A DNA stretch of 32,733 nt, from positions 1-32,733 of the forward strand of contig JAADJE010000073.1 of assembly GCA_013150915.1 (NCBI GenBank), read 5' to 3'. The DNA is from Gammaproteobacteria bacterium. Its GTDB lineage: Bacteria; Pseudomonadota; Gammaproteobacteria; BMS3Bbin11. The position numbers and the translations under genes were made by a program. Of the stretch, positions 9,315 to 32,668 are shown one piece after another. A model generated the notes under the pieces. The model made no database searches. It was not told the origin of the DNA and saw only the letters and a program-made list of their open reading frames with translations. How positions within the stretch are numbered: position 1 is the first letter of the stretch; every line of letters begins with the position of its first letter.

Positions 9315-9431
9315 GCACACCTCCCGGGCTTTTATCCCTCCGTGTAACCTGCAGAGCAGCAACATAACGCCGGCAGGTCGACAGCTCTTGGACCAGACAT
9401 CTTTTTTTACAGACCGGAACCCTAGCCGTCT
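9315..9431 (-). promoter_or_regulatory. Guanidine-I (ykkC) riboswitch
   Basis: Read on the minus strand, all conserved blocks of the ykkC class I guanidine aptamer are present in order: CTAGGGTTCCG (from 9425), then TCCAAGAG (9392-9385), then ACACGGAGGGATAAAAGCCC (from 9345), followed by GGGAGGTGT. The aptamer ends about 65 bases before the ATG at 9252. Downstream, GTGTAACC (9272-9265) and AACCTGC (9280-9274), just before the ribosome binding site, are exact complements of GGTTACAC and GCAGGTT in the 3' part of the aptamer. That suggests a switching helix acting on translation, as there is no U-rich terminator. Known members activate genes when guanidine binds. Confidence 0.96.
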
Positions 9432-9480
9432 TATTCAGCAAATCATGACAATAACGTCATTGAACACTTGCCCAGTGTGA

Positions 9481-9496
9481 TGCAAAAACAGTGCCA
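9481..9496 (-). promoter_or_regulatory. Sigma-54 (-24/-12) promoter of the guanidine operon
   Basis: The minus strand reads TGGCAC-TGTTT-TTGCA, an exact match to the sigma-54 consensus, with GG and GC ten bases apart. Transcription would start near 9470, about 40 bases before the riboswitch. An NtrC-like dyad lies roughly 110 bases upstream. Confidence 0.87.
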
Positions 9497-9602
9497 CACT
9501 CAATACAAATAAATTAGTTAATATTAATCAACAAGTAAGGGATATGAAGTCAATAATGGTAAATAGGAAAGAGGGTCATATTAGTGCACGCATATCAATT
9601 AC

Positions 9603-9617
9603 GCACAATAAAAGTGC
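9603..9617. promoter_or_regulatory. NtrC-type enhancer site
   Basis: GCAC-N7-GTGC (GCACAATAAAAGTGC) matches the NtrC dyad arrangement. It lies about 107 bases upstream of the sigma-54 element at 9481-9496, a normal enhancer distance. The rest of 9497-9725 is A+T-rich without a convincing gene. Confidence 0.6.
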
Positions 9618-22075: not shown

Positions 22076-23779
22076 CTAAAATAGAAAATAACGTTGTGCC
22101 ATTGGCAAAACCTTTGCAGGCTCACAGGTCAATAACTCACCGTCAGCCCGTACTTCATAAGTTTGCGGGTCAACCGAAATCTCTGGCAGGTAATCATTCA
22201 ACAACATGTCTTCTTTTGTTACTGAACGGCACTGTTTCACCACAGCGATCATGCTTTGCAAATTGAGTTCTTCATGCACCCCCGCGTCGTAGCCTGCCTG
22301 AGACAGGAAGGTCATCGATGTGGCAGTGCGTGCCCCGCCCAGGGCTGCAAACATGTGACGATAGTGTACCGGCTGGGGCGTTGGGATGGATGCATTCGGA
22401 TCACCCATAGGCGCAGCAACGATCATTCCGCCTTTAATTATCATGCTGGGTTTACTGCCAAAAAAGGCCGGTTTCCATAATACCAGATCAGCCAGTTTAG
22501 CGACTTCTACCGAACCGACTTCATGACTGATACCATGCGCCAGAGCCGGATTGATCGTGTATTTGGCAATATAGCGTTTGGCCCGCGCATTATCTGACTC
22601 TGCCGGGTCAGCAGCCAGACTGCCGCGCTGCACCCGCATTTTGTGAGCGGTCTGCCAGGTACGTATAATAACCTCTCCAACACGCCCCATGGCCTGCGAG
22701 TCCGACGCAATCATTGAAAAGGCACCCAGGTCATGCAGTATGTCTTCGGCCGCAATGGTCTCTCTCCTGATGCGTGATTCAGCAAAGGCCACATCTTCGG
22801 CAATATTCGGGTCAAGGTGATGACAGACCATCAGCATATCCAGATGTTCATCAATGGTGTTAATGGTGTAGGGGCGGGTCGGGTTAGTTGAAGAAGGCAA
22901 TACATTTTTATAGCCACAGGCCTTGATGATGTCCGGCGCATGGCCACCACCTGCCCCTTCTGTGTGATAGGTATGAATCGTGCGCCCTTTCATGGCGGCG
23001 AGACTGTCTTCAACAAATCCGGATTCATTCAGGGTGTCTGTATGAATCGCAACCTGCACATCGTATTCTTCGGCTACCGCCAGGCAATTATCAATGGATG
23101 CAGGGGTGGTCCCCCAGTCCTCGTGCAATTTAAGACCAATGGCCCCAGCCATGACTTGCTCCACCAGTGCCTCGGGTAAACTGGCATTCCCTTTCCCGAG
23201 ATAACCAAGATTCATGGGCAGTTCATCCGATGCCTGCAGCATTCTGTGGATATTCCAGGGGCCTGGGGTACATGTGGTGGCATTTGTCCCGGTTGCCGGA
23301 CCGGTTCCACCACCCAGCATCGTCGTCACACCCGACATCAGGGCATCATCGACCTGTTGTGGACAGATAAAATGTATATGTGAATCGACACCTCCGGCAG
23401 TCAATATCTGCCCTTCTCCGGCAATCACCTCGGTACCCGGCCCAATAATGATATTGACCGCCGCCTGGGTATCGGGGTTGCCTGCCTTGCCTATCCCCGC
23501 TATACGCCCATCCTTGATACCGACATCCGCCTTAACGATACCCCAGTAATCCAGAATCAGGGCATTGGTAATGACCACATCGACAACTTCGTCAGATATT
23601 CTTTGACTCTGCCCCATGCCATCACGAATAACCTTGCCCCCCCCAAATTTGACCTCGTCACCATAGACGGTGTGGTCATCCTCAACGGCAATCCACAAAT
23701 CCGAATCACCGAGACGTATACGGTCACCGGTACTGGGGCCATACATTTCGGCATAGGCCTGTTTACTGATTTTTGCCAT
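22076..23779 (-). CDS. ureC: Urease alpha subunit UreC
   Basis: The catalytic subunit, 567 residues, hydrolysing urea to ammonia and carbamate. Nickel ligands fall at the classical numbering: His134 and His136 in SHIHF, Lys217 (carbamylated) in GLKLHEDWG, His246 in VAIHTDT and His272 in [10 protein letters not shown]. The flap motif MVCHHLD contains the active-site Cys and His at about 320-321. Nothing is missing, so it should be active. It follows the fused ureAB gene with a 2-base gap. Confidence 0.98.
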
Positions 23780-31526: not shown

Positions 31527-31542
31527 AGCAACAAACATGCCA
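31527..31542 (-). promoter_or_regulatory. Sigma-54 (-24/-12) promoter of urtA
   Basis: The minus strand reads TGGCAT-GTTTG-TTGCT, one base off the core consensus, with GG and GC ten bases apart. Transcription would start near 31516, leaving a leader of about 45 bases. NtrC-like dyads lie 60-180 bases upstream. Confidence 0.85.
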
Positions 31543-31604
31543 CTTAATTTATTCACTATTATCAATTAGTTATGATTGTATTTTATATTTACTGTGTTTT
31601 CCCG

Positions 31605-31619
31605 GCACTACTTAGGTGC
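31605..31619. promoter_or_regulatory. NtrC-type site 1
   Basis: GCACTACTTAGGTGC has the GCAC-N7-GTGC dyad of NtrC sites. It is 63 bases upstream of the urtA sigma-54 element and about 200 bases upstream of the divergent porin promoter, so it could serve both. Confidence 0.7.
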
Positions 31620-31643
31620 GTTTTCCTCTATCAGAGATAAATC

Positions 31644-31660
31644 TGCACCATTAACGACCA
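31644..31660. promoter_or_regulatory. Weak NtrC-type half site
   Basis: TGCACCATTAACGACCA keeps a perfect left half (TGCACCA) with a poor right half. It lies between the two good dyads and could be bound cooperatively. Confidence 0.35.
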
Positions 31661-31705
31661 AAGCGGCCCTTCGAAAAGCCCCCTCTCTGATACATAGCAA
31701 TTAAA

Positions 31706-31722
31706 TGCACCAGCAAAGTGCA
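31706..31722. promoter_or_regulatory. NtrC-type site 2
   Basis: TGCACCAGCAAAGTGCA is close to the enteric NtrC consensus (TGCACC-N5-GGTGCA). It lies 96 bases upstream of the porin sigma-54 element and about 165 bases upstream of the urtA one. Confidence 0.78.
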
Positions 31723-31817
31723 GTTAAGTTCCAAGTAGGCACATTTATCGGGTAAATATTTTCATCTATACACCAACATAACCCTATATCTATTTGATTT
31801 ATATCATTAATCAATAA

Positions 31818-31834
31818 TTGGCACATATAATGCT
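31818..31834 (+). promoter_or_regulatory. Sigma-54 (-24/-12) promoter of the porin gene
   Basis: TTGGCACATATAATGCT: TGGCAC, then GC ten bases after GG, matches the -24/-12 layout. Transcription would start near 31845, giving a leader of about 85 bases. Confidence 0.8.
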
Positions 31835-31930
31835 TTTGTTTCGACTATGGCTTTGATACAACGATGTGTCTCATTGATACAACAAAATCAAATTACCCTA
31901 ATTTTTTTCTTACTAACGGAGCACTTAAAT

Positions 31931-32668
31931 ATGAAAACAGCAATTAAACCACTGGCAATCGCAACGGCCGTTTCCATGGCCAGTATGGCGGCAATGATCA
32001 CACCTGCTCAGGCTGAGTTAAGCGGTAATATCGGCATATTCTCTCAATATGTTCTTCGTGGTATCACCAATGCCCCTGAAAACGACAATGCCGCTGTACA
32101 AGGTGGCCTTGATTGGGGACATGACAGTGGTTTCTATCTCGGTTATTGGGGGTCTAGTCTGGGGTACGGTAAGGCAGGCACCAAAGGCTTTGAAAACGAC
32201 TTTTATGCAGGCTGGGGGGGTGAAGCAGGCAGCATAAGCTGGGACCTTGGCGCTACCCAATATTACTATCTGAATGTTAATGATTCCAACGCATTCGAAC
32301 CTTATGCCTACATTGGCTTCGGCCCGGCTAGCTTTGGCTTTAAATATCTGGCTCAAGACGTCGCCTGGGGAAACAAGGGAGACACCTACTGGACTCTGGA
32401 TGCCTCACAGGAAATTGGTGCCGGATTCACCCTTGGTGGTTCTCTCGGGTACTACAGCTATAAAACAGACGGTGAGTTTATTCCTAATTCTCCGGACGCC
32501 ATCAGCAGCAGCTTCCGTCACCTGAATATCGACCTGTCTCATCCAATTGGTAACACCGGAGCCGATGCCAACTTCACCTATATCATAGGCGGTGAAGACC
32601 GTTTTGGTGTTGATCAGGATAACCAGATTGTATTCTCAGTGACCTACGGTTTTGACATCGCGAAGTAA
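31931..32668 (+). CDS. TorF-family putative outer-membrane porin
   Basis: A 245-residue exported beta-barrel protein of the TorF (TIGR02001) family. The signal peptide spans residues 1-32 (ending TPAQA); the mature part has the family pattern LSGNIGIFSQYVLRGITNA and alternating aromatic/Gly strands to the end (VTYGFDIAK). The frame opens at 31847, but that codon coincides with the predicted transcription start; the ATG at 31931 has a GGAG box and a proper signal peptide. It is divergent from urtA under a sigma-54 promoter, suggesting outer-membrane passage of small nitrogen compounds. The substrate is not established. Confidence 0.88.
   Translation: MKTAIKPLAIATAVSMASMAAMITPAQAELSGNIGIFSQYVLRGITNAPENDNAAVQGGLDWGHDSGFYLGYWGSSLGYGKAGTKGFENDFYAGWGGEAGSISWDLGATQYYYLNVNDSNAFEPYAYIGFGPASFGFKYLAQDVAWGNKGDTYWTLDASQEIGAGFTLGGSLGYYSYKTDGEFIPNSPDAISSSFRHLNIDLSHPIGNTGADANFTYIIGGEDRFGVDQDNQIVFSVTYGFDIAK

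Follow-up and report, generated by a model that had tools for sequence, protein, structure and literature searches.

Guanidine assimilation genes in the window, by which we mean the whole 32,733-nt stretch of gammaproteobacterial DNA analyzed here, are very likely controlled by a serial gate, in which initiation at an NtrC-activated sigma-54 promoter is followed by guanidine sensing in the RNA leader and the ligand check is repeated at the carboxylase gene. Since a nitrogen-starvation promoter precedes guanidine RNA sensors, the genes should switch on only when a shortage of nitrogen coincides with the presence of guanidine. This AND logic is inferred from sequence, as are NtrC binding, the start site, the ligand response and a strict need of nitrogen starvation for transcription. 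Under nitrogen limitation, phosphorylated NtrC bound to a dyad ~140 bp upstream would touch sigma-54 RNA polymerase at 9496-9481, and DNA bending by IHF possibly assists this contact. The transcript from near 9470 would cover the genes for the importer, the carboxyguanidine deiminase, the guanidine carboxylase and the allophanate hydrolase. Without guanidine, the 3' strand of the Guanidine-I aptamer would pair with the leader stretch directly ahead of the first gene, the Shine-Dalgarno sequence being hidden. Guanidine, by stabilizing the aptamer, would expose the Shine-Dalgarno sequence and permit the importer genes to be translated, as in a translational ON switch. A Guanidine-II element before the carboxylase gene would add a second ligand check inside the operon.

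Promoter, enhancer and operon in the window

All control elements lie on the minus strand, on which the sequence-only reading that preceded this analysis was silent. The perfect sigma-54 promoter it claimed is present as TGGCACTGTTTTTGCA (9496-9481), an exact TGGCAC-N5-TTGCA with GG at -24, GC at -12 and 10 bp between them in the TGGCAC/TTGCA context. This is the sole exact copy in the window, for which shuffled sequences give a mean of 0.06 (present in 6 of 100 shuffles), and one of three copies in the 2.65 Mb genome; the genome-wide chance of exact promoters and dyads was derived from pattern counts. Counting 12 nt from the -12 C, the transcription start is predicted at 9470 (±2) on the minus strand. 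The start near this position proposed before agrees with this prediction, and the distance to the aptamer is predicted to be 34 nt rather than about 40. The dyad claimed at about 107 bases upstream of the promoter was likewise recovered: GCACTTTTATTGTGC (9617-9603) is a perfect GCAC-N7-GTGC, of which the window has three (shuffle mean 0.57), and is separated from the promoter by 106-107 bp, within the ~100-150 bp at which an NtrC enhancer is sought. It matches the TGCAC-N7-GTGCA type at 8/8 core positions, with G...G rather than T...A as flanks. Its center lies at about -140 from the predicted start, one of the positions of NtrC sites at E. coli glnAp2. Between dyad and promoter, a weak IHF-like sequence with one mismatch, AATCAACAAGTAA, can be read on the plus strand (9526-9538).

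The predicted transcript contains, all on the minus strand, a gene with PF09084 (9252-8191), an ABC permease (8143-7316; PF00528), an ABC ATPase (7315-6524; PF00005), two DUF1989 proteins assigned as carboxyguanidine deiminase subunits (6508-5783 and 5789-5145; both PF09347), a biotin-dependent guanidine (urea-type) carboxylase of 1199 aa (5012-1413; Pfam domains) and an allophanate hydrolase-type amidase whose 3' end lies outside the window (1411-2; PF01425 and reading frame). Judged by these domains, the combination of ABC importer, two DUF1989 proteins, carboxylase and amidase is the guanidine carboxylase pathway (PMC12186494; PMC12508155). Carboxylase relatives in 80 loci are 57-80% identical. 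A putative Guanidine-II (mini-ykkC) riboswitch (5129-5082, minus strand; RF01068) is located 5' of the carboxylase gene, between it and the second DUF1989 gene, and has both ACGR hairpin loops (ACGA, ACGG). With 30.7 bits it falls just below the Rfam gathering cut-off of 32 and is thus missed by a default scan, whereas elements at the same position in relatives reach 35-41 bits, above the cut-off. The dual Guanidine-I/Guanidine-II arrangement as such is already known (PMC12508155; PMC12186494).

Conservation of the promoter and probable identity of the activator

Each of these motifs alone is only mildly improbable, and the weight of the sequence argument rests on their conservation in relatives. 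The loci comprised 80 fetched by their carboxylase and a class sample of 369 genomes, in which we searched for aptamers by way of their conserved core; 118 aptamer matches, mostly from Gammaproteobacteria, were reduced to 83 by dereplication. Weights and threshold of the sigma-54 promoter score were our choice, fixed before the shuffle test and after the window site had been seen. Two doubtful aptamers (L032:4209 and L052:2976) were counted as negatives among the 83. The closest carboxylase relatives (L002-L006 and L008) stand outside the promoter test because their fetched contigs are without Guanidine-I; four of them have Guanidine-II only. A sigma-54 promoter was found within 150 nt upstream of 65 of the 83 aptamers on the coding strand, compared with a mean of 0.95 (maximum 3) in shuffles, one on the reverse strand and one in the next 150 nt upstream. 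These promoters lie 30-135 nt upstream of the Guanidine-I aptamers.

This recurrence bears on the view that the riboswitch is the sole control, that transcription is constitutive or driven by sigma-70 and that the sigma-54 match is a coincidence. One exact match in a window of such size does have a chance of ~6%. However, coincidence is hardly credible for a promoter that recurs in 65 of 83 dereplicated loci, where 0.95 are expected, confined to a single strand and a single position. Furthermore, no sigma-70 promoter was found on the coding strand in the scan, and the opposite strand has one sigma-70-like match, which does not exceed chance. A GGDEF (diguanylate cyclase) gene (11018-9726, minus strand) ends 230 bp upstream of the sigma-54 promoter on the same strand, so that read-through or a cryptic sigma-70 promoter could provide basal transcription.

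In the phylum sample, which overlaps slightly with the first set, the promoter is present at 35/36 gammaproteobacterial and 7/15 alphaproteobacterial aptamers. The alphaproteobacterial promoters (L274, L276, L281, L284, L285, L287 and L291) are positioned at -36 or -37 from the CTAGGG box in six cases and at -35 in one, and hence the predicted transcript begins almost with the first aptamer base. The distance between promoter and CTAGGG box is never below 30 nt, which places the aptamer always within the predicted transcript. Even with the promoter at -30 (L180), the predicted start precedes the xCTAGGG box by 4 nt, at the point at which the 5' strand of P1 begins. About 20% of the aptamers, including one from Nitrosomonas, are without a promoter by the strict score, and several of these loci have a near-promoter at the same place, e.g., TGGCAC-N5-TTGGA at -95 in Vibrio. 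In the ammonia oxidizer Nitrosomonas mobilis (L079), Guanidine-I precedes the carboxylase operon and the best sigma-54 score is 10.0 of 14.5; the lack of a good site would be expected if nitrogen gating is useless in an ammonia oxidizer. Some Marinobacter loci carry two Guanidine-I riboswitches ~10 kb apart (e.g., L028:8411 and 18462), both preceded by a sigma-54 promoter and a dyad of their own, and this pair apparently splits enzymes and importer into two operons. Promoter and dyad are also present in two loci recorded as Vreelandella utahensis (L044, L047).

The probable nature of the activator is indicated by the dyads. NtrC-like dyads with at most one mismatch are found upstream of 50 of the 65 promoters (shuffles 9.0, maximum 15), and perfect ones upstream of 13 (shuffles 0.44). 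IHF-like sites are mildly enriched, occurring in 18 of 64 dyad-promoter intervals compared with 5.1 in single-base shuffles. The genome of the window encodes both NtrC (TIGR01818, 704.8 bits, cut-off 558.6), on a contig shared with glnA, and RpoN (TIGR02395, 462.3 bits). Its other nitrogen genes have a similar layout: an exact promoter and a perfect dyad with a gap of 107 bp precede a nirB-like operon, as in the guanidine operon, the urt urea-transporter operon within the window has both a sigma-54 promoter and a dyad, and a perfect dyad lies upstream of glnA. Alternatively, the sigma-54 promoter might be real and have an activator different from NtrC, an enhancer-binding protein that senses, for instance, carbon or a specific substrate. 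A recognizable dyad is absent from 23% of the promoters, and the genome has a gene for a second NtrC-like regulator (C101, 355.9 bits). We regard such an activator as improbable, as NtrC-type dyads are 5.5-fold and perfect ones ~30-fold enriched at the right distance, and match those that this genome has at glnA, urt and nirB. In addition, genes for other enhancer-binding proteins are nearly absent from the neighborhoods. Conserved promoters (65/83 against 0.95), dyads (50/65), the encoded ntrC and rpoN and the like layout at other nitrogen genes are fitted best by the AND gate that the sequence-only reading had put forward.

A locus-specific enhancer-binding protein was considered as regulator and dismissed; such genes were seen in the neighborhood of just 2 of 80 carboxylase loci, and this scarcity favors a global activator. 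The divergent region 31527-31834 contains the other two perfect NtrC-type dyads of the window (31605-31619 and 31707-31721) and sigma-54-like promoters in both directions, TGGCATGTTTGTTGCT on the minus strand toward urtA and TGGCACATATAATGCT on the plus strand toward the gene of a Gcw_chp outer-membrane-type protein (31847-32668). An Rfam match to the 5' ureB sRNA (82.2 bits) at 23344-23626 on the plus strand runs antisense to the urease alpha-subunit gene and may reflect protein-coding conservation instead of an RNA.

The predicted guanidine-dependent step in the leader

The guanidine riboswitch claimed before is a Guanidine-I (ykkC) aptamer at 9436-9319 on the minus strand, matched by the RF00442 covariance model over its full length, with the conserved core and with 89.3 bits against a gathering cut-off of 63. 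In the computed ligand-free fold, an anti-aptamer strand of the leader, CUGUGUAACC (9274-9265, minus strand), pairs with GGUUACACGG of the aptamer (9349-9340), and the Shine-Dalgarno region CGGAG (9262-9258, minus strand) pairs with the aptamer segment CUCUG (9356-9352), its probability of being unpaired being ~0 in the free ensemble. The free fold has -75.7 kcal/mol (z -3.26), and forcing the aptamer reduces both pairings to weak two-pair contacts, the fold being a computed minimum without ligand or co-transcriptional kinetics. The window scan detected no intrinsic terminator after the aptamer, and the stretch from aptamer to start codon is without a T run. Since this leader shows no intrinsic terminator and its Shine-Dalgarno sequence is hidden in the fold without ligand, the Guanidine-I ligand step in this operon probably works on translation.

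Data from relatives are consistent with an exchange of this kind. Aptamer-leader complementarity reaches a score of at least 16 in 30 of 80 loci, whereas 8.5 are expected from shuffles, and the pairing shows compensating changes (GGTTAC/GTAACC, GGTCAC/GTGACTC and GCTACACGG/CCGTGTAGC). In 59 leaders without a T run, mean Shine-Dalgarno accessibility decreases from 0.43 to 0.27 once the aptamer is included (p 7e-5). Three aptamers found by regular expression looked false or misplaced (L032:4209, L052:2976 and L067:8354) and were left out of the later folding tests. In some relatives (e.g., L166, L174), a terminator is built from GCCCGGGAG, which belongs to the aptamer, and a T run, so that both platforms, termination and translation, exist. 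Intrinsic or Rho-dependent termination instead of Shine-Dalgarno hiding might hence be considered for the window as well, the more so as, according to the review literature, Guanidine-I usually acts on transcription (PMC12186494) and as Rho effects can result from poor translation. Yet, with neither a T run nor a terminator in this leader and with the Shine-Dalgarno sequence fully paired in the free ensemble, we consider termination rather unlikely here and favor the translational switch.

Assimilation, export and relation to known systems

Sampling of Guanidine-II riboswitches in the same class, with SMR-type exporters recognized by reading frame length and sequence, shows where the promoter is absent. 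None of eight Guanidine-II riboswitches before SMR exporters has a promoter at the same threshold (Fisher p 1.8e-5 against the Guanidine-I loci), suggesting that the gate tracks assimilation and not detoxification. Two desaturase-like genes directly behind Guanidine-II (L223:1305-2565 and L207) have a sigma-54 promoter 56-59 nt upstream; the protein in L223, a locus of the window's genus, belongs to the fatty-acid-desaturase family (PF00487), and a perfect NtrC-type dyad is present. The desaturase-family proteins of L223 and L207 are possibly enzymes acting on alkylguanidines. In L225, a carboxylase gene lies directly behind Guanidine-II and the promoter is at -42. The promoter likewise accompanies Guanidine-I in guanidinase-like and second-importer operons. 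As the desaturase-like genes and L225 have a promoter and the exporters do not, the gate follows gene function rather than riboswitch class. It is likely that in many Proteobacteria the riboswitches of assimilation (carboxylase, guanidinase-like, importer and Guanidine-II desaturase-like genes) are placed behind NtrC/sigma-54 promoters regardless of class and those of export are not, so that the promoter determines whether the cell handles guanidine as food or as a toxin.

A widespread riboswitch family would thereby gain a missing upstream layer, which explains how bacteria supplied with ammonium could avoid the cost of making an ATP-dependent guanidine pathway. The prediction is that guanidine alone will not induce such operons in nitrogen-rich medium, and it bears on reporter work, on the degradation of guanidine and metformin waste and on when guanidine serves as a nutrient.

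COG3665 is the DUF1989 family, i.e., genes of such guanidine operons. A computed sigma-54 regulon lists 102 sigma-54-controlled COG3665 genes in alpha-, beta- and gammaproteobacteria, 59% of them annotated as "urea carboxylase," and makes no link to guanidine or riboswitches, the word "guanidine" occurring 0 times in its text (PMC12316311). In Vreelandella boliviensis, the operon proteins are ~1000-fold more abundant, or seen only, on guanidine compared with ammonium (PMC12508155). This comparison changes nitrogen status and ligand together, and the two inputs are therefore inseparable there. Carboxylase operons with both riboswitches are described for V. boliviensis (PMC12508155) and for Raoultella, Erwinia and Klebsiella michiganensis (PMC12186494). 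They share with the window the core genes, a Guanidine-I riboswitch that heads the operon and the place of Guanidine-II before the carboxylase gene, where the window has a candidate element, but the mechanism proposed for their Guanidine-I is a terminator. The text of neither paper mentions NtrC or a sigma-54 promoter. Within the open-licence literature searched, we found no paper joining sigma-54/NtrC (RpoN) with guanidine riboswitches.

The riboswitches, the dual operon, the computed list of sigma-54-controlled COG3665 genes and nas-type logic are thus already known, and the link between sigma-54/NtrC and guanidine riboswitches is unsurprising in its logic, but conserved and quantitative. 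The closest parallel in logic is provided by the nas operons, nasFEDCBA of Klebsiella and nas of Azotobacter and Paracoccus, which combine NtrC with NasR or NasTS antitermination (PMC5424462). As proposed for the window, global nitrogen control acts at initiation and substrate-specific control in the RNA leader. The nas leader sensor, however, is an ANTAR protein acting on a terminator, whereas the leader in the window is without a terminator between aptamer and start codon and its sensor is a riboswitch, which probably acts on translation. The guanidine operon would be an example of nas-type logic in which an RNA sensor replaces the protein antiterminator.
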